From an uncultured Nesterenkonia sp. (GTDB taxonomy: Bacteria; Actinomycetota; Actinomycetes; Actinomycetales; Micrococcaceae): a stretch of 64,000 bases of DNA. The translations under genes and the position numbers were made by a program. The DNA is taken from NCBI GenBank assembly GCA_947494195.1, contig CANLUC010000002.1:434001-498000 (forward strand). Reading direction: 5' to 3'. The first letter of the stretch is position 1. Each line of letters begins with the position of its first letter. The notes beneath the pieces are model-generated. The model was not told the origin of the DNA. It made no database searches and worked only from the letters and a program-made list of their open reading frames with translations. Below are positions 26,652 through 46,828 of this stretch, piece by piece.

Positions 26652-26743
26652 GATGCTTCTCCCTGTACAGGTGAGGGCGGACCAGGAGCACGCAGGAGGA
26701 AAGCTGCTGCTCACAAGCATCAGCATCCGAGTGCAGAATCTCG

Positions 26744-26870
26744 ACTTCCTTCGCAGGTCCTAACCTGATCAGGTTCGAGGGTCTGGGCCTTCAGCCCACT
26801 CTCAGCGTCCTGGCGGTGACATCACAGCTGGTCAGCTGTGCCTGGCACCGAGGGGCGCTCCCCTGTCGTG
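26744..26870 (-). promoter_or_regulatory. TPP (THI-box) riboswitch upstream of ykoE
   Basis: Read on the minus strand, the region holds the conserved TPP aptamer blocks in order: GGGGAGC near the 5' end (about 26865), CGCTGAGAG (about 26803), ACCCTCGAACCTGATCAGG (about 26775) and ACCTGCGAAGGAAG (about 26745). The variable P3 arm is a GCACAGCTGACCAGCTGTG-type hairpin. It ends about 90 bases before the ykoE start, leaving room for an expression platform that could occlude the GGGAG ribosome site. Binding of thiamine pyrophosphate is expected to switch the operon off. Confidence 0.93.
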
Positions 26871-26933
26871 TCTCAAATGACGTGCACTAGAGTAGCACCA
26901 GAGACACTCGAACCACCTGCAACGGAGGACACT

Positions 26934-39135: not shown

Positions 39136-39911
39136 GCAGCGCAGCAGTTCACTCCGAGGCGGCGAAGCCGGTCCATGCGGACCTGGCATCGCGGTCGAGC
39201 TTCGCCAGGGTTCCAGCAGCGTTCAAGCTGCAGTTCACCGTCCCCTCCGCCATGATCGGTGTGCCGCTGATCGTGTTCTTCGGCGCCTGGGCGGTGGCCA
39301 TAGTAATCGGACTGTGGATCCGGCACCTCGCCGACGGCGAGGGGGAGCCGTTCTATACCGGGGCGTCCCAGGCGACCATCTGGTGCCTGCTCTTCATGGC
39401 CGCCTACTCGGCCTCGCACACCTTCCCGTTCTCGATGGCGTTGAGCTACAGCCGACGCGTCTTCGTGCTGGGAGCATTCCTTGCCTTTGCAGCGATCTCG
39501 GCAGGCTTCGGCGCCCTGTTCTCGGTCGCCATCCTCCTTGAACGGGCGACAGCAGGATTCTGGGCGGAGAGCTACACCTTCGATCTCCCGCTGATGACAC
39601 AGAACGCCGGTGTTCTGGGAGCAGGTCTGATGGCAGGCGCCGTGTGCCTGTCGTCGATGATGATCGGCTTCTTCTGGTCGATCCTGTATCGCCGCGTCAG
39701 CCTCGCCATGCTGTGGCTGACGGCGTTGGCAGTGATGTCGGCGCTGGTCGTGATCGTCATGGTGATCACGCAGAACGACTGGTGGCCCCATGTGGGGGAC
39801 TGGTTGGCGGTGCAGAGCTCCTACACGTTCGCAGGCTGGGTGCTTCTGCTCACTCTGGGCCTGACCGTCCTGAACTACGTGGTCATCCGACGAGCAGTCC
39901 CGACCCCCTGA
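39132..39911 (+). CDS. ABC transporter membrane subunit
   Basis: This 259-residue protein has about six transmembrane helices (for example MIGVPLIVFFGAWAVAIVIGL, AFLAFAAISAGFGALFSVAIL, VMSALVVIVMVI) and no recognisable extracytoplasmic domain. Its ATG overlaps the ATPase stop, so the two should assemble into one transporter. Sequence resembles uncharacterised permeases of YtrA-regulated operons more than classical ABC-2 exporters. Substrate unknown; antibiotic or envelope-stress response is an inference from the regulator type. It ends 38 bases before the first structured repeat. Confidence 0.72.
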   Translation: MSSAAVHSEAAKPVHADLASRSSFARVPAAFKLQFTVPSAMIGVPLIVFFGAWAVAIVIGLWIRHLADGEGEPFYTGASQATIWCLLFMAAYSASHTFPFSMALSYSRRVFVLGAFLAFAAISAGFGALFSVAILLERATAGFWAESYTFDLPLMTQNAGVLGAGLMAGAVCLSSMMIGFFWSILYRRVSLAMLWLTALAVMSALVVIVMVITQNDWWPHVGDWLAVQSSYTFAGWVLLLTLGLTVLNYVVIRRAVPTP

Positions 39912-39948
39912 ACGAACTGCCAGACGGCGGCCGGCTCTGATCGCGACG

Positions 39949-40038
39949 CATAAGAAAGGAGTCCCGGATCGGCCAGCGTGAGGGGGACGCTATATCGGCC
40001 GATCCGGGACTCCCGAATCACTCGCACCTTGATGAGGT
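39949..40038 (-). ncRNA. Predicted small RNA, hairpin family copy 1
   Basis: On the minus strand: TAGAGT (40050-40045) as a -10 box, a 15-base spacer, the conserved 16-mer AAGGTGCGAGTGATTC (40029-40014), then a perfect 15-base-pair stem (40010-39996 with 39973-39959) and a CCTTTCTT tract. The hairpin tip is AGCGT, a CCCCCTC loop and ACGCT. The stem sequence differs from copy 2 but remains fully paired. The whole occupies the gene-free stretch 39912-40282 with copy 2. Promoter use and strand are inferred. Confidence 0.5.
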
Positions 40039-40119
40039 AGTACCTACTCTAGGAAGTCTTCTTGAACGGGTACTTGCAATGAGCTGTTAAGTCACTGGGA
40101 ATATCGGCTGCATCGAGCG

Positions 40120-40207
40120 GACAAGAAGAAGCCCCGAGTCGGCCAGCGTGAGGGACGCTATATATGGCCGACTCGGGGCTTCCGAATCACTCGCACCTTG
40201 ATGAGGT
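40120..40207 (-). ncRNA. Predicted small RNA, hairpin family copy 2
   Basis: The layout is the same as copy 1: TAGAGT (40219-40214), 15 bases, the identical 16-mer (40198-40183), a perfect 16-base-pair stem (40180-40165 with 40143-40128) and a CTTCTTCTTG tail. The tip has AGCGT and ACGCT around CCCTC. Sequence between the -10 box and the 16-mer is almost identical to copy 1 (ACTACCTCATC). Its 3' end lies 70 bases upstream of copy 1's -10 box, so the two are separate tandem units. Confidence 0.5.
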
Positions 40208-40282
40208 AGTCATGACTCTACTGACGATTCTTGGCAGTTCTCGGTGCAAATCCTGGGAAGTTCCTGGGTCTTTTCCCGGACG

Positions 40283-40645
40283 CTATTTCCCGTCAGGCCG
40301 AGGGGCCCCGGGGTGAAGAATGAGGCGGTCCCCGTCGAGCGAGATCTGGTGGGTCTTGACCGGCGTGAGGGCAGGCAGGGTCTCCGGGACCCCCGTACGC
40401 AGACAGAACGCGGAGGCGTGCATGGGGCACTCCAGGGTGTCCTCCTCCACGTAGCCGTCGGAGAGCGACACCGCTTCGTGTGAGCAGGTGTCATCCAAGG
40501 CGTAGAAGCCGCCGTCCTCCGCGTGGACGACTGCGATGTCGTCATCCCAGCCAGTGGTCTCCGCCGCGACTCGAAACACCTCCCCTTCTGGATACTGGGC
40601 CGCAGGGCCGAGGTCGACAGGGGGGAGTGGTTCAGTCGATGACAT
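40283..40645 (-). CDS. Rieske-type [2Fe-2S] ferredoxin
   Basis: This 120-residue protein is a single Rieske domain with the cluster ligands CSH (about 53-55) and CPMH (about 74-77), the His residues completing Cys2His2 coordination. It resembles the soluble ferredoxin subunit of non-heme iron oxygenases and the small Rieske protein often carried in suf operons. No oxygenase, reductase or suf gene is next to it here, so the electron partner is unknown. An AGAGG site precedes the ATG. It lies between small-RNA copies 2 and 3, on the same strand as both. Confidence 0.87.
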   Translation of the reverse strand: MSSTEPLPPVDLGPAAQYPEGEVFRVAAETTGWDDDIAVVHAEDGGFYALDDTCSHEAVSLSDGYVEEDTLECPMHASAFCLRTGVPETLPALTPVKTHQISLDGDRLILHPGAPRPDGK

Positions 40646-40698
40646 GGAATGCCTCTCACAGAGATGAATATGTTCTGCCTGTATTGTCTCAGCGCGCG

Positions 40699-41085
40699 TC
40701 AGTACCCGCGCAGCTCCTCGAGCTGGCGCCGTTCTCGTTTGGTCGGACGACCCGCGCCGCGCTCTCGCACAGGAAGACCGACGTCACGGGGTCGAATACG
40801 CTCCGGGGAGTGGTCGCGGTAGGCCTGCTGGGCCACGGGAGCTCCCACCCGCTTGGAATGCGTATGGACGATGTCGAGGATCAGCTCGTGTCCGGGTCGC
40901 CGCACATGGATGCGCGTTCCAGGGCGGACTCGCACCGAGGCCTTGACCGGATCTCCATCTATGGTGATGTGCCCGGCACGACAGGCTGAGGTGGCGGCGG
41001 ATCGCGTCTTGAACAGTCGCACGGACCAGAGCCAGGCATCGATGCGAACCGGGGCACGCGGACCGGTGGGGGCGGTCTCAGTCAT
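40699..41085 (-). CDS. S4-domain RNA-binding protein (Hsp15-like)
   Basis: This 128-residue basic protein has an N-terminal S4 domain: RIDAWLWSVRLFKTRSAATSACRAGHI (about 14-40) followed by the DGDPVKASVRVRPGT turn. The rest is an Arg-rich tail (GRPTKRERRQLEEL). This is the Hsp15/HslR and RqcP group, which binds stalled 50S subunits with peptidyl-tRNA in ribosome rescue. The start is leaderless (TAGACT six bases upstream). Small-RNA copy 3 ends about 33 bases upstream and points toward it. Confidence 0.85.
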   Translation of the reverse strand: MTETAPTGPRAPVRIDAWLWSVRLFKTRSAATSACRAGHITIDGDPVKASVRVRPGTRIHVRRPGHELILDIVHTHSKRVGAPVAQQAYRDHSPERIRPRDVGLPVRERGAGRPTKRERRQLEELRGY

Positions 41086-41091
41086 CTCACC

Positions 41092-41097
41092 AGTCTA
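41092..41097 (-). promoter_or_regulatory. Leaderless -10 box TAGACT for S4 protein gene
   Basis: TAGACT on the minus strand ends six bases before the ATG at 41085. GGTGAG directly before the ATG could also act as a weak ribosome site. Confidence 0.45.
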
Positions 41098-41117
41098 GGA
41101 GCAGTCCGGCGGGCGTG

Positions 41118-41205
41118 TGGAATGCACAGACCCCGCGCCCGGAATGTGAGGGGACACTGTTCCGTGACGCGGGGTCTGTTGAATCACTCGCACCTTCAAG
41201 AGGCA
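41118..41205 (-). ncRNA. Predicted small RNA, hairpin family copy 3
   Basis: This diverged copy keeps the framework: TAGTGT (41217-41212), exactly 15 bases, the same 16-mer AAGGTGCGAGTGATTC (41196-41181), then a 12-base-pair outer stem (41179-41168 with 41137-41126), an inner CGGAA/TTCCG stem and a TCCCCT loop. The 3' tail is less T-rich than in copies 1 and 2. The stem sequence is entirely different from the other copies but still paired, which argues for selection on structure. Confidence 0.45.
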
Positions 41206-41267
41206 CTCCTGACACTAGGGCTGCTCTTTGGGTGAAGAGTGGATGCCTCCTGGGCGGAGCCTGGACC

Positions 41268-41918
41268 TCAGTCTTCAGTGCCTGCCTCGCCCTGACTCTG
41301 ATTGTGGTATTCGCCTTCACAGAATTCTACAGTGAGCCATCCCTCTACCGGTTCTGCTGCCACAAGAACCGCTTCTTCATCCAGATCTTCAACCTGCGTG
41401 TTCAGCAGGTTAAGAATGTTCTCGAGCGGGTCACGCAATTCCTCAGGAACGAGTACATATGTCTGCTCGACAGCCAAGTATGCTTCGTCCAGCACGTCTT
41501 GTTCTTCGACACCTTGATTCATATCTGAGCGCAGTCCATCAACCATTGAACCGACGGAGAGACATGTTTCTTCCTCGGAGAAATATGCACCGAGTTCTTC
41601 GGTTCTTTCCATGTCCATTGCGTCAGGGTCCGGCAGTTCATCGTCGGGCTCTGCCTCAGAGGGGTCTTCCCCTCCAGGCTCAGAGTCCGCGCCACCTTCC
41701 GGGTCAGCAGCCTGTGTCTCGGCGGGTTCAACTTCTTCCGAGGTGACGCTGGACGGGCTCGAAGAGTCACTGGAGCTGGAGCTCGGCTCCTCCTCCACGG
41801 CGCAGCTGACGAGCATCAGGGGCGCGATCGCCGCCATCGAGAGAGCGGCGCGGAGGCGGTTCGGGAACGGGTGGGAGTCTCGTACCCGAACCGTCGGAGG
41901 AGCAGGAAACAGGTTCAT
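41268..41918 (-). CDS. Acidic lipoprotein of unknown function
   Basis: This 216-residue exported protein has a long basic N-terminus, hydrophobic core and lipobox L-V-S-C (about Cys39). A Ser/Glu/Asp/Pro-rich linker (about 40-100) follows, then a small helical domain with two cysteines (EETCLSVG and EFCEGEY) that probably pair. No family was recognised. CACACT six bases upstream may be a leaderless -10 box. Its design (lipid anchor, acidic linker, small cysteine-paired domain) resembles the lipoprotein at 30811-31710, but no sequence homology is evident. GC content falls slightly near the 3' end. Confidence 0.6.
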   Translation of the reverse strand: MNLFPAPPTVRVRDSHPFPNRLRAALSMAAIAPLMLVSCAVEEEPSSSSSDSSSPSSVTSEEVEPAETQAADPEGGADSEPGGEDPSEAEPDDELPDPDAMDMERTEELGAYFSEEETCLSVGSMVDGLRSDMNQGVEEQDVLDEAYLAVEQTYVLVPEELRDPLENILNLLNTQVEDLDEEAVLVAAEPVEGWLTVEFCEGEYHNQSQGEAGTED

Positions 41919-42028: not shown

Positions 42029-42093
42029 AGAGGGCAGTGTGACGCACCCTGAATGTCCTGCGGTAGTGACATTCGGCTGTTGCACTGCCCTCT
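42029..42093. repeat. Long nested palindrome in the leader region
   Basis: An outer 11-base inverted repeat, AGAGGGCAGTG (42029-42039) and CACTGCCCTCT (42083-42093), encloses an inner GAATGTC (42051-42057) and GACATTC (42068-42074). Both arms are perfect. It lies in the gene-free 41919-42514 stretch, about 420 bases upstream of the cell-wall enzyme gene. It may be a bidirectional terminator, a small structured RNA or the remnant of a short mobile repeat; there is no T tract on the plus strand and CTTGTT follows on the minus strand. Confidence 0.6.
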
Positions 42094-42514: not shown

Positions 42515-45500
42515 GTGCCGAAAAAACTCTCTTCTGCCGTTGTCGGCACTCTTGCCGTCGGCCTGACCATGCCGCTGACTGCCAACGCCGCAGCAGCCGC
42601 TCCCACCGATCTGGCTCCGCTGCCCGCGACAGGGGTGGACACCACAGCGGCCAGTGCAGCGAGCTTGAGCACCGTCGACATCTCCGCCACGCGCAATGCG
42701 ACGCAGTTCCGCTACCCGCTCGCCCAGCGGTCCTTCAGCTACACCTCTCCCTACGGCGCACGCTGCATGCCGGTCCAGGGAGCATCCACCTATCACCTGG
42801 GTCAGGACCTCGGTGCTGCGAACAACAGCCCCATCTACTCGGTGGCCGACGGCACCGTGGTGCGCACGTTCAGCGGTAACCGGTACCAGGCCGGATACGT
42901 CGTGATCCAGCATCGGATCGACGGCAAGACCTTCTACAGCGCCTACTTCCACATGTGGGACGCGAACACGCACGTGAGGACGGGGCAGACGGTCAAGGCC
43001 GGACAGACCATTGCGCGGGTCGGCAGCTCGGGCCCGTCGACGGCCCCTCACCTGCATCTGGAGATCTGGGAAGGCGCGTGGCTCAGCGGCAAGTCGCACA
43101 ATCCGACCACCTGGCTCGCCCAGCGCGGGATCAACCTGCGCTCGGCTGCGACCTCGGTCATGAACATCTCGGCACCTGCCTCGTGTGACTACTACACCGC
43201 CACGTCCACTCCGCTGCGTTCCAGCGCGAGCAGCTCGAGCTCGGTGATCATGCAGCTCGCTGCAGGGACTGCGCTGACTGCAGTTCCAGGTGACATCAGC
43301 AATTCGATGGTGCGGGTCAAGACCAATGGGCGGACCGGCTGGGTCGCGCACTCCGCGGTCACCCCGTCGCGGCCCAGCGGCTCCAGCGGCGGCACGATTC
43401 CGGCGTCCAGCGCTCCCAAGGGCACCTCGGTGACTCCCACGAAGTACCAGACGACGACGACGCTGAACGCACGAAGCGGCCCTGGCGCCAACTACGGGGT
43501 GCTCCAGGGGTTGGCCACGGGTACCGAGGTCACGGTGACCGCCAAGTACGGCAGCTGGCTGAAGTTCAGTCGCAACGGGCAGACCGTCTGGTCCCACGGC
43601 GACTTCCTCAAGAAGGTCTCGAGCTCCTCGACGACCACCCCAGCGACGTCGGACAGCTCGGTCGCCAAAGCCAGTGGTACCTATAAGGTCCAGCCTGGCG
43701 GGCGACTGAATGTGCGCACCGGTGCAGGGACCTCGAACTCGGTGGCCAAGACGCTGGCGCCGGGCACCACGATCAAGGTCAATGGCAAGCTGGGCTCCTG
43801 GCTCCGGTTCGATGACGGTTCGCGCAATCTGTGGGTGCACAAGAACTACGTGAACGCGGTCAGCACGGGCTCCGGATCCGGCTCCGAGGCAGTCCCCGGG
43901 GTCAGCTCGGCCAGTGGCACCTATAAGGTCCAGCCTGGCGGACGGCTGAATGTGCGCACCGGTGCAGGGACCTCGAACTCGGTGGCCAAGACGCTGGCGC
44001 CGGGCACCACGATCAAGGTCAACGGCAAGCTGGGCTCCTGGCTCCGGTTCGATGACGGTTCGCGCAATCTGTGGGTGCACAAGAACTACGTGAACAAGGT
44101 CACCGCTTCTGCCCCTGCGTCCAGCAGTGGGGTCAGCTCGGCCAGTGGTACCTATAAGGTCCAGCCTGGCGGGCGACTGAATGTGCGCACCGGTGCAGGG
44201 ACCTCGAACTCGGTGGCCAAGACGCTGGCGCCGGGCACCACGATCAGGGTCAATGGCAAGCTGGGTTCTTGGCTCCGGTTCAGTGACGGTTCGCGCAATC
44301 TGTGGGTGCACCAGAATTACGTGAACCAGGTCACCGCTTCTGCTCCCGCGTCGAGTAGCTCGGTTGCCAAAGCCAGTGGCACCTTTAAGGTCCAGCCTGG
44401 CGGGCGACTGAATGTGCGCACCGGTGCAGGGACCTCGAACTCGGTGGCCAAGACGCTGGCGCCGGGCACCACGATCAAGGTCAACGGCAAGCTGGGCTCC
44501 TGGCTCCGGTTCGATGACGGTTCGCGCAATCTGTGGGTGCACAAGAACTACGTGAACAAGGTCACCGCTTCTGCCCCTGCGTCCAGCAGCGGGGTCACCA
44601 AGGCCAGTGGCAGCTACAAGGTCCAGAGTGGCGTCAATCTGAATGTGCGTACCGAGGCGACTACTTCGAGCTCCAAGGTCACGACGCTCAAGCCGGGAAC
44701 GACTATCAAGGTGACCGGTAAGAAGGGCTCCTGGCTCAGCTACAAGGACGGTTCTCGCACCGTGTGGGTCCATTCGGGCTACCTGGACAAGGTCAGCGCA
44801 TCGAAGAGCACCGGCTCCGGATCCGGCTCCGAGACAGTCCCCGGGGGTACCGAATATTCGCAGTCCTCCGCCAGCACAACTTCAAACGGCACCTATAAGG
44901 TCAGCAGCGGCGTGCAGCTGAATGCCCGGACAGGCGCTGGCACCTCGAACGCCAGTGTGAAGATGCTCAAGCCCGGTACCACGGTGAAGGTCACCGGCGA
45001 GAAGGAGGATTGGGTCAGCTTCAAGGATGGTTCCCGCACCCTGTGGGTACATTCGGACTATCTGACGAAGGCGTCTTCCTCCACGTCCACCTCCCCGAGC
45101 AAAAAGTCGGACAGCAAATCGAGCAGCTCCTCCTCGAAGTCCTCGTCCAGTTCGACGACGGCTGCGAGTGGCTCGTTCCAGGTGAAGTCCGGCATCTCGC
45201 TGAATGCGCGGACCGGGGCCAGCACCTCGAGTTCGAGTGCGAAGGTGCTCAAGGCTGGCACGAAGGTCTCCGTCACCGGGAAGAAGGGTGAGTGGGTCAG
45301 TTTCAAGGACGGCTCGCGGACCCTGTGGGTGCATTCGGGCTATCTGGTCAAGGCCTCGGCGAGCGGTTCATCGGGCAGCTCTTCTTCGAGCAGCTCGTCG
45401 TCCAGCACCTCCTCCTCGAAGTCCTCGTCCAGTTCGACGACGGCTGCGAGCGGCTCGTTCCAGGTGAAGTCCGGCATCTCGCTGAATGCGCGGACCGGGG

Positions 45501-46828
45501 CCAGCACCTCGAGTTCGAGCGCGAAGGTGCTCAAAGCTGGCACGAAGGTCTCTGTCACCGGGAAGAAGGGTGAGTGGGTCAGCTTCAAGGACGGCTCGCG
45601 GACCCTGTGGGTGCATTCGGGCTACCTGGTCAAGGCCTCGTCTGCGGGATCCTCGAGCGGCTCCTCCTCCAGCAGCGACTCGGGCAGCACCTCGTCAAAG
45701 CCAGCCCAGAGCTCGAACTCTTCGTCCATAAACTCTGCCAGCGGGACTTACCACGTCAGGAGCGGTGTCTATCTGAACGCGCGCAGTGGGCCGGGCCTCT
45801 CGAACCGAGTGGTGCTCAATCTCAACCCCAAGCGCGAGATCCAGGTCACCGGGCGCAGCGGCGATTGGATGAGATTCACCTACAGCGGCAAGGACGTCTG
45901 GGTCACCGCCGAGTTCCTCGAAAAGGGCCCGGCCCGTGATGCAGCGCCATCGGGCTCCGACGGATCCACGAGCGCACCGGCCAAGAAGGCCAACTCCACG
46001 AACAGCAGCAGCAAGGCTGTGGGCACTGCCTACAGCACGAATGCCGTGAATGTGCGGATGGGCCCCAGCGTCAATCACAGCGCGATGTTCTCAGTGAGGT
46101 CGGGCACCAAGGTCGAGCTGCTGGAGAAGAAGAAGGACGGCTGGCAGGAGGTCAGGGTCAACGGAGCCACGGGCTGGATGTCCGCCCAGCTGCTGACGAG
46201 CAAGGCGCCGAGCTCCACCGGCCCGGCGAACTCGGGAAGCTCAGGATCCTCCGGCTCCACCAGCGGTTCGGGCAGCTCGAGCTCCTCGAATATGCACGCC
46301 AAGAGCAAGAACGGGCCGTACAGCGCGATCTGGGACAAGCTCGCGCAGTGTGAGTCCGGCCAGAACTGGAAGATCGACACCGGCAACGGCTTCTACGGAG
46401 GGGTGCAGTTCAGCCCGGAGTCCTGGGAAGCCGTCGGCGGGTCCGGCTTCCCGCACGAGGCCAGCCGAGAAGAGCAGATCAAGCGCGCCTACCTGCTGTA
46501 CAAGAAGCAGGGTTGGAACGCATGGCCGCTGTGCAACGCCAAGCTGGGTCTCAAGGGTGATCCAGGCGGGTACGGGGATGACTACTACCGGGTCCATCCC
46601 AACGCGAAGACTGCCTCAACGCTCACCCAGGCGGAGTCCTGGACTGCCACGTACAGCGTGCCGCTGCGCGAATCGGCAGCGACCTCCAGCGACAAGCTGG
46701 TCCAGGTCCCGCGCGGTGCCGAGCTCAAGCAGCTCAAGCGCGATGGTTCCTGGCTGAAGGTGGAGTACACCTCAGGCGGGGACACCCACACCGGCTGGGT
46801 GAACACCAGCTACATCTCCCAGGCCTGA
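42515..46828 (+). CDS. Secreted multidomain cell-wall enzyme: M23 peptidase, 13 SH3b repeats, Rpf-type domain
   Basis: GTG at 42515 follows GAGGA by eight bases. The 1437-residue protein has a signal peptide (1-30), an M23/LytM endopeptidase with YHLGQD (about 91-96) and HLHLEIW (about 180), then twelve bacterial SH3 domains (starting near 225, 309, 389, 469, 546, 623, 701, 792, 887, 981, 1077, 1169). A resuscitation-promoting-factor-like lysozyme domain follows (about 1265-1345; WDKLAQCESGQNW with the catalytic Glu, GFYGGVQFSPESW), and a thirteenth SH3 near 1372. It should cut both peptide and glycan strands of peptidoglycan while binding the wall. Ser/Thr/Ala linkers join the SH3 units. Four central SH3 copies are almost identical in DNA. 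Confidence 0.9.
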   Translation: MPKKLSSAVVGTLAVGLTMPLTANAAAAAPTDLAPLPATGVDTTAASAASLSTVDISATRNATQFRYPLAQRSFSYTSPYGARCMPVQGASTYHLGQDLGAANNSPIYSVADGTVVRTFSGNRYQAGYVVIQHRIDGKTFYSAYFHMWDANTHVRTGQTVKAGQTIARVGSSGPSTAPHLHLEIWEGAWLSGKSHNPTTWLAQRGINLRSAATSVMNISAPASCDYYTATSTPLRSSASSSSSVIMQLAAGTALTAVPGDISNSMVRVKTNGRTGWVAHSAVTPSRPSGSSGGTIPASSAPKGTSVTPTKYQTTTTLNARSGPGANYGVLQGLATGTEVTVTAKYGSWLKFSRNGQTVWSHGDFLKKVSSSSTTTPATSDSSVAKASGTYKVQPGGRLNVRTGAGTSNSVAKTLAPGTTIKVNGKLGSWLRFDDGSRNLWVHKNYVNAVSTGSGSGSEAVPGVSSASGTYKVQPGGRLNVRTGAGTSNSVAKTLAPGTTIKVNGKLGSWLRFDDGSRNLWVHKNYVNKVTASAPASSSGVSSASGTYKVQPGGRLNVRTGAGTSNSVAKTLAPGTTIRVNGKLGSWLRFSDGSRNLWVHQNYVNQVTASAPASSSSVAKASGTFKVQPGGRLNVRTGAGTSNSVAKTLAPGTTIKVNGKLGSWLRFDDGSRNLWVHKNYVNKVTASAPASSSGVTKASGSYKVQSGVNLNVRTEATTSSSKVTTLKPGTTIKVTGKKGSWLSYKDGSRTVWVHSGYLDKVSASKSTGSGSGSETVPGGTEYSQSSASTTSNGTYKVSSGVQLNARTGAGTSNASVKMLKPGTTVKVTGEKEDWVSFKDGSRTLWVHSDYLTKASSSTSTSPSKKSDSKSSSSSSKSSSSSTTAASGSFQVKSGISLNARTGASTSSSSAKVLKAGTKVSVTGKKGEWVSFKDGSRTLWVHSGYLVKASASGSSGSSSSSSSSSSTSSSKSSSSSTTAASGSFQVKSGISLNARTGASTSSSSAKVLKAGTKVSVTGKKGEWVSFKDGSRTLWVHSGYLVKASSAGSSSGSSSSSDSGSTSSKPAQSSNSSSINSASGTYHVRSGVYLNARSGPGLSNRVVLNLNPKREIQVTGRSGDWMRFTYSGKDVWVTAEFLEKGPARDAAPSGSDGSTSAPAKKANSTNSSSKAVGTAYSTNAVNVRMGPSVNHSAMFSVRSGTKVELLEKKKDGWQEVRVNGATGWMSAQLLTSKAPSSTGPANSGSSGSSGSTSGSGSSSSSNMHAKSKNGPYSAIWDKLAQCESGQNWKIDTGNGFYGGVQFSPESWEAVGGSGFPHEASREEQIKRAYLLYKKQGWNAWPLCNAKLGLKGDPGGYGDDYYRVHPNAKTASTLTQAESWTATYSVPLRESAATSSDKLVQVPRGAELKQLKRDGSWLKVEYTSGGDTHTGWVNTSYISQA
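43661..44570 (+). repeat. Four near-identical SH3-encoding DNA repeats
   Basis: Units starting near 43681, 43921, 44152 and 44383 (periods about 240, 231 and 231 bases) share a core of roughly 190 bases with only a few substitutions. Linkers between them vary. The copies indicate recent unequal recombination, so copy number may vary between strains and assemblies. Confidence 0.9.
45160..45640 (+). repeat. Second pair of near-identical SH3-encoding repeats
   Basis: Units beginning at about 45164 and 45446 (period 282 bases) are nearly identical over about 190 bases plus part of the serine linker. They form a family distinct from the 43661-44570 repeats, so two independent amplifications occurred in one gene. 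Confidence 0.88.

Follow-up and report, generated by a model that had tools for sequence, protein, structure and literature searches.

The 64,000-nucleotide stretch analyzed here (the window: positions 434,001 to 498,000 of the forward strand of contig CANLUC010000002.1, assembly GCA_947494195.1, from an uncultured Nesterenkonia sp.) carries three minus-strand intergenic units between positions 39949 and 41205 that belong to a predicted family of small RNA (sRNA) genes, each coupled to a distinctive operator, found across the Micrococcaceae, a group of soil and skin bacteria. The sRNA genes and their operator are strongly supported by the comparisons below. Each unit can be read as a free-standing gene for a trans-acting sRNA of about 87–89 nucleotides (nt), close to the 85–90 nt predicted in an initial annotation of the window; the RNA would consist of a 5′ mini-hairpin (ACCU...AGGU), an exposed seed GUGCGAGUGAU and a long intrinsic-terminator hairpin whose sequence would be free to drift. 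We propose that a putative OmpR/PhoB-type response regulator binds tandem 11-base-pair (bp) repeats immediately upstream of a −10 box that lacks a good −35 element, and that it would turn on all copies together. The seed, in turn, would pair with AUCACUCGCA(CC), located at the start codon or just ahead of it, in mRNAs that encode solute-binding lipoproteins and other uptake transporters, most likely stopping their translation. That response-regulator-driven sibling sRNAs repress uptake genes here, as the streptococcal csRNAs and rhizobial AbcR RNAs do, we regard as somewhat probable.

The window's genome has exactly three sites for the 16-mer AAGGTGCGAGTGATTC shared by the units, each on the minus strand (40015–40030, 40184–40199 and 41181–41196), in agreement with the three-copy family initially described. 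The predicted transcripts occupy 39950–40038 (copy 1, its start at about 40038 placed from the −10 box), 40120–40207 (copy 2) and 41118–41204 (copy 3). Their minus-strand folds reach −56.2, −56.8 and −56.2 kcal/mol, with z-scores of −6.1, −7.5 and −6.1, and for each copy none of 200 shuffles folded as well. The stems had been given as 12–16 bp; the pairing is real, but the helices are longer, with an outer helix of 14–19 pairs before an inner one. As claimed, two copies have T-rich tails—copy 1 ends in the U-rich CCTTTCTTAT (39950–39957) and copy 2 is likewise T-rich, while that of copy 3 is weak.

The constant 5′ module lies at 40015–40037 in copy 1 (CCTCATC followed by the 16-mer), 40184–40206 in copy 2 and 41181–41203 in copy 3, which has the variant CCTCTTG. 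Read on the minus strand, it takes the form CCUC-A/U-U-C/G-AAGGUGCGAGUGAU and is predicted to be able to form the mini-hairpin ACCU/AGGU with GUGCGAGUGAU exposed. CCTC-T and AGGTGCGAGTGAT are identical in 34 of 34 non-redundant Nesterenkonia units; these were collected via the 16-mer, so that its invariance is partly by construction and only that of CCTC-T is independent. The whole module is also unchanged in all 22 of the best covariance-model loci of other genera, in which the second hairpin has no shared sequence. The fourth position of the mini-hairpin holds C.A in most units, U-A in 11 and C-G in nine. The long GC-rich hairpin is unrelated in sequence between genera and yet re-pairs: among 103 units (more than 30% different), a stem's own arms pair at a mean of −32.3 versus −19.3 kcal/mol for swapped arms, which bears out the earlier remark that the stems differ but re-pair. 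As every stem is GC-rich, even swapped arms give good pairing, with 78% of them reaching −15 or better. The T-rich ends average 4.6 T of 12 (101 units). In eight of 190 units the seed element AGGTGCGAGTGATGA is repeated in tandem; at least six of these come from Micrococcus/Citricoccus or genus g4 (L050, L052, L053, L056, L083 and L149).

A covariance model built from an alignment (A1) of the 34 non-redundant Nesterenkonia units has matches at E ≤ 0.01 in 29 of 32 Micrococcaceae genera, or 116 of 149 genomes; the initial annotation had suggested just such a search of relatives with the 16-mer and its variable stem, and the family was recovered by it. A pattern for the 5′ module alone (at most one mismatch) is found in 104 of the 149 genomes and 26 of the 32 genera, with none in the control. 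Copy number across the Micrococcaceae ranges up to eight per genome, many genomes having a single copy. Within Nesterenkonia, the 16-mer with at most one mismatch occurs in 29 of 30 genomes at one to seven sites per positive genome, against none for the reversed control; a few of these sites (e.g., in G009 and G024) are not sRNA genes. The sole genome lacking the 16-mer, G017, to which the covariance model R1 was not applied, is also without the S4-domain gene flanked by sRNA copies elsewhere. A scan of a genome collection with named records gave at least 119 stretches, 80 of them with titles; judged by name, 79 of the 80 titled stretches among the matches listed come from Micrococcaceae. The genera among the matches listed include Arthrobacter, Glutamicibacter, Paeniglutamicibacter, Micrococcus, Citricoccus, Zhihengliuella, Kocuria, Auritidibacter, Yaniella and Nesterenkonia. 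The remaining stretch, the Ignavibacteria record L081, is taken as a chance match, the surroundings of its motif having neither a GC-rich hairpin nor an operator, and unit counts in this work exclude it. A class-wide sample of 394 genomes searched with up to two mismatches gave exact matches in two Nesterenkonia genomes only, and three other genomes with one or two mismatches versus six in the reversed control. In the samples searched, matches outside the Micrococcaceae are thus at chance level. A further sRNA subfamily, marked by ACCTTCTCAAGGTGCGAGTGAT, which has a U-A closing pair, or by a similar sequence, lies near the first in L088, L094, L119, L132, L136 and others; it appeared as reverse-strand matches in the named loci, and also in genus g23.

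In Rfam (release 15) none of the three units has a match at threshold, in line with the initial statement that no Rfam family has this layout. The high-GC actinobacterial 6C RNA has C-rich loops; the units had been declared distinct from it, and there is no 6C match at the gathering cut-off in the window and none at E ≤ 10 in 39900–41300. F6/SfdS (RF01791), a mycobacterial sRNA and thus likewise one of high-GC actinobacteria, was rejected as a parent family at 27.6 bits against a cut-off of 46 (25.7 bits on the opposite strand), and no F6 match above the cut-off occurs in the 30 Nesterenkonia genomes; its GCCCCG stem, like the C-rich loops of 6C, is a point of likeness to the present units. 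Transcription of F6 is driven by SigF, and its gene sits between fadA2 and fadE5 (PMC8557902). Streptomyces sRNAs with C-rich loops have been described (PMC3765725), and were set against the present family only through the class-wide pattern search. Searches of the open-licence literature, at the level of listings and abstracts, turned up no description of such an RNA; four unnamed intergenic sRNAs mentioned for an Arthrobacter strain (PMC6696678) may overlap with the present family.

The second line of evidence comes from the promoter. In the 34 units, TANNNT stands at −21 to −16 (T at −21 in 97%, A at −20 in 91% and T at −16 in 91%) with no convincing −35 element. In the window the hexamers are TAGAGT (copy 1, 40046–40051), TAGAGT (copy 2, 40215–40220) and TAGTGT (copy 3, 41212–41217), each upstream of the 16-mer with 15 bases between, as first observed. 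Upstream of the −10 box are tandem 11-bp repeats of the form CAGG-AAACTYC-CAGG, the last being CAAGG/CAAGAA, which end 7 nt before it. The conserved CAARRA element of the initial annotation is present (CAAGAA, CAAGAA and CAAAGA), but at seven rather than eight bases from the hexamer, and on sequence grounds it is the last of the repeat set, i.e., a part of the operator. Over 106 non-redundant upstream regions, self-identity relative to shuffles stands at z = 15.2 for lag 11, 10.2 for lag 22 and 6.6 for lag 33, with no other lag from 4 to 34 exceeding 2.6 standard deviations. An 11-bp repeat period and placement near the −10 box are typical of OmpR/PhoB-family activators, CiaR being an example. 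The operators of the window lie on the minus strand at 40054–40106 (copy 1, including CAAGAA at 40059–40064), 40223–40275 (copy 2, CAGGAACTTCCCAGG ... CAAGAA) and 41220–41272 (copy 3, weaker).

A sequence-only operator model was built from 36 upstream regions, five of the 41 listed having been dropped by eye from alignment A3, mostly for a shifted register. The window copies are in its training set and score E 4.1e-8 (copy 1, G000:C2:474045-474107), 1.6e-8 (copy 2) and 1.0e-5 (copy 3). Across the 30 Nesterenkonia genomes it gives 77 matches at E ≤ 1e-3, 76 of them at sRNA genes: 75 have the 16-mer 15–26 nt downstream (72 at 15–16 nt), one in G028 has a copy with two mismatches, and G018:C55 (E 7.9e-4) has none. 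That the model recovers the sites it was trained on follows from how it was made; the informative part is the near-absence of matches elsewhere. Between E 0.0014 and 0.04, three matches in G008 and G022 are sRNA genes with a GAGG variant, and those in G015, G019 and G017 are not sRNA genes. Conversely, 75 of the 89 listed 16-mer sites carry the operator at E ≤ 1e-3; several of the other 14 score more weakly, and at least two (in G009 and G024) run antisense to the leader of a candidate target and are not sRNA genes. A search with the model for a regulon of protein genes gave only G018:C55, a G015 match at E 0.0097 and others at E 0.03 or weaker. One weak match, G000:C1:594692-594721 (E 0.04–0.08), is a conserved intergenic site in G000, G009 and G024 and a possible protein-gene member of the regulon; its neighbors, judged from sequence, are a symporter-like and a metallo-hydrolase-like gene.

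The coupling of operator and −10 box at a fixed spacing also bears on whether the units are genes at all. Inverted repeats with GC-rich stems in several intergenic copies, at which a sigma-70 scan found no promoter, might be seen as ends of mobile elements, of the repetitive extragenic palindrome (REP) or miniature inverted-repeat transposable element (MITE) kind, or as plain bidirectional terminators without a transcript of their own. Such an origin is, however, highly improbable: beyond the fixed coupling, the copies keep conserved synteny in many species, about 1 kb apart around the S4-domain gene, the hairpin varies between copies where the 5′ module does not, and the exact pattern was not found in viral contigs, on which ground carriage of the units by viruses was rejected as well. 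The initial annotation had named an identity as mobile-element ends as what would overturn it, and this finds no support. The missing sigma-70 match fits an activator-dependent promoter with a poor −35 element, without proving one. Sibling trans-acting sRNAs come, as here, from several related genes in one genome that have a constant stretch in common.

Candidate targets were sought through the complement of the seed. An exploratory search of the 30 Nesterenkonia genomes with a 12-mer gave 22 matches in 17 genomes; some of these lie at starts, among them ATGAATCACTCGCACC, which four genomes have. In 11 genomes—relatives picked after this search, six of which had 12-mer matches—ATCACTCGCA has 102 matches; 44 are at sRNA genes, and the other 58 were examined with starts from a codon-usage gene caller and a range of −50 to +25 around the start. 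Twenty of the 58 lie at starts in sense, compared with 3.3% of random positions, and most of the remainder are within or antisense to coding regions. Counted by orthology group, 11 of 46 are at starts in sense (3.7% expected) and none in antisense (p 7e-7), with 14 versus 1 in a wider range; there are 46 rather than 45 groups through separation of L411 from the L371 group. Dropping the groups seen in the exploratory search leaves nine of 40 (p 1.2e-5). By Pfam the 11 groups are SBP_bac_5, DctP, BCCT, ABC_sub_bind, SBP_bac_1 (twice), Sugar_tr/MFS, DUF4212, DUF4041, Uricase and one without a family. DUF4212 we take to be a symporter subunit. Eight of the 11 resemble transporters or solute-binding proteins, and five are lipoprotein-like by a rule that picks 14 of 398 genes. 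The SBP_bac_5 target, of the oligopeptide type, is found in the window's genome and three relatives. Near-misses, just beyond the distance limits or uncalled, are a small lipoprotein and TctC, Peripla_BP_4 and NlpA-type binding proteins.

These sites might instead be a DNA operator or leader motif of the transporter genes, unrelated to the sRNA, which would then have other targets. The confinement of the start enrichment to one clade favors such a motif, but its orientation specificity (11 groups in sense against none in antisense) and the location of several sites beside the Shine-Dalgarno sequence or within the first codons (ATGAATCACTCGCACC), unusual for operators, make it quite unlikely. 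From the gene family, the coupling of promoter and operator, the constant module and the enrichment of complements at starts in one genus, all properties of sequence, we infer transcription, a binding protein, pairing in vivo and the direction of regulation.

Several observations weigh against this proposal of seed-mediated repression. The transcripts are predictions, and the starts come from our own gene caller. The 58 sites outside sRNA genes are about as many as the roughly 60 expected from uniform bases; the reversed word has only five matches in the 11 genomes but differs in codon make-up, and neither figure was weighed. Among 11 further Nesterenkonia genomes, not part of that set, one of 12 sites of the 12-mer is at a start, and two other sites resemble diverged sRNA genes. 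In three other genera (400 kb each, 1012 starts), the 8-mer TCACTCGC has one start match against a shuffled mean of 1.35, and the 9- and 10-mers none, about 0.7 being expected for the 10-mer. No match in the 118 named loci (0.92 Mb) falls at a start, and most of the matches there are further sRNA genes. In the window and 400 kb of its own genome, the full seed matched the oligopeptide-binding gene only, and duplex energies over that 400 kb showed no bias toward lipoproteins (p 0.62). In these samples roughly one 10-mer site or fewer would be expected, and the power to replicate the enrichment in other genera is low. A comparison of OmpR-type regulators between G000 and G017 pinpointed no regulator. 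G017, which lacks the 16-mer, keeps most of them; L240 of G000 has no close counterpart (best 54%), and one G017 regulator has two G000 paralogues. The predicted targeting is thus computational, comes mostly from one Nesterenkonia clade and was not reproduced in small samples of other genera. The target-site word suited to whole-genome scans of starts is ATCACTCGC(A).

A different point of contact with mRNA had been suggested at the outset, namely that the C-rich loops mask GAGGG-type Shine-Dalgarno sequences. Loops of the 6C RNA and of staphylococcal C-loop RNAs have been reported to pair with G-rich Shine-Dalgarno sequences in this way. The C-rich loops of all three window units are as described, each with CCC, which also occurs in the main apical loop of 90 of the 133 non-redundant units, and GCGTCCCC(C)CTCACGC is well conserved within Nesterenkonia. 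The feature is, however, not universal: by a crude fold 43 of the 133 lack it, and a strict count leaves 26 without any unpaired CCC over the 75 nt that follow the module, e.g., in Glutamicibacter, Zhihengliuella, Micrococcus lylae and some Arthrobacter units, whose terminators have other loops. Since these 26–43 units keep the 5′ module all the same, the C-rich loop cannot be the common function, and masking as a general mechanism fell away; pairing through the loop is an unlikely explanation for the family. It may be relevant within Nesterenkonia, perhaps as a second, lineage-specific seed.

The genes around the units raise a further alternative. Copies 1 and 2 sit between the convergent ends of a Rieske [2Fe-2S] protein gene (40283–40645, minus strand; PF00355, 3e-17) and a family-less open reading frame (ORF) that follows an ATP-binding cassette (ABC) ATPase gene. 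Copy 3 sits between a lipoprotein-like ORF (41268–41918), whose 3′ end its operator overlaps, and the start of an S4-domain (Hsp15-like) protein gene (40699–41085, minus strand; PF01479, 6.8e-11) that serves as the anchor of synteny. The 5′ module could accordingly be a protein-binding site, with the RNAs titrating a protein or being chaperoned by one, such as the S4-domain protein, and not pairing with mRNAs. The conservation of hairpin and linker over 26 genera, the tandem duplication of the seed element, the adjacency of the S4 gene in genera g1, g4 and g21 (about 75–80 bp from the sRNA in g4 and g21) and the absence of both S4 gene and 16-mer from G017 can all be read in this manner. Yet there is no co-variation across the family, as g26 and g31 have the sRNA without S4 and g6, g7 and g12 have S4 without the module, and the complementary sites at transporter starts are left unexplained; a protein-binding role in place of pairing therefore seems rather improbable. 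The S4 protein as an obligate partner, a strong candidate inside the genus, fails over the family.

If repression through the seed holds, the family would be a new one of sibling sRNAs in Actinobacteria that works like the csRNAs and AbcR and is a member of neither, because seed, operator and host differ. Among Gammaproteobacteria, OmpR controls the Omr sRNAs, GcvB targets transporters, and Qrr, OmrA/OmrB and GcvB are all Hfq-dependent. They have sibling copies with a conserved core in common with the present family, and their sequences are unrelated to it. Qrr sibling copies with their conserved core are driven by the response regulator LuxO (PMC4211561). The csRNAs (PMC3091779, PMC8186281) are sibling genes in changing contexts with a CiaR repeat TTTAAG-N5-TTTAAG of 11-bp period about 10 nt upstream of the −10 box, and many have two stem-loops and a conserved unpaired stretch whose sequence complements that of translation starts. 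In the same sources, four of six possible csRNA targets are membrane or transporter genes, csRNA5 is internally duplicated, and CiaR also controls protein genes, with 5 of its 15 promoters driving sRNAs (PMC3091779, PMC8186281). Sibling copies, an operator of 11-bp period for a response regulator, putative here, and a duplicated element are shared. As for the unpaired stretch, the present RNAs are predicted to have a mini-hairpin, GUGCGAGUGAU and a terminator hairpin, with start complements enriched in one genus and not in samples of others. In contrast, the operator repeats read CAGGAAACTYC/CAAGG, the host is from another phylum (Micrococcaceae rather than streptococci with CiaRH), the seed differs from csRNAs that aim at the Shine-Dalgarno sequence and AUG, and nearly every strong operator is at an sRNA gene, unlike those of CiaR. 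AbcR1 and AbcR2 are sibling sRNAs, in tandem in Agrobacterium and Sinorhizobium, that repress mRNAs of ABC transporters and metabolism at the ribosome site (PMC8844928, PMC4211561). Sibling sRNAs aimed at uptake mRNAs would be the likeness; the differences are the C-rich anti-Shine-Dalgarno motifs of AbcR, its control by the LysR-type LsrB and by RpoH1, and its two copies. No AbcR match came from Rfam, and the constant stretch here is GUGCGAGUGAU in place of such motifs.

To our knowledge, seed-based regulation by sRNAs has been little explored in Actinobacteria. The family may adjust the choice of nutrients taken up and, if so, would add one more independent example of nutrient uptake under the control of sibling sRNAs. 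A more ambitious version—a Micrococcaceae-wide two-component system acting almost only via sibling sRNAs, to which its operator is all but confined, and thereby a one-seed rheostat of nutrient uptake acting on solute-binding proteins, a network like those of GcvB, AbcR and the csRNAs but of independent origin in an actinobacterial family—we hold tentatively, at a little under an even chance. The family lends itself directly to testing: its seed is constant, an operator marks its genes, targets have been predicted, and there are natural losses (G017; genera g6, g7 and g12). The sRNA genes also mark a route to the putative response regulator and its signal.

Some other features of the window may be mentioned. 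A further long intergenic hairpin at 42030–42092 (GAGGGCAGTG...CACTGCCCTC; fold z −3.2 on the plus strand) lies upstream of a large ORF with M23, SH3 and transglycosylase domains; its pattern recurs in loci L015, L266 and L267 of relatives and is thus conserved at least there. A thiamine pyrophosphate (TPP) riboswitch at 26729–26874 on the minus strand is barely above the Rfam threshold (54.7 versus 54.3 bits). At 42515–46828, on the plus strand, is encoded a protein of 1437 amino acids that combines an M23 peptidase with 13 bacterial SH3 stretches and, at its C-terminus, a transglycosylase-like domain.

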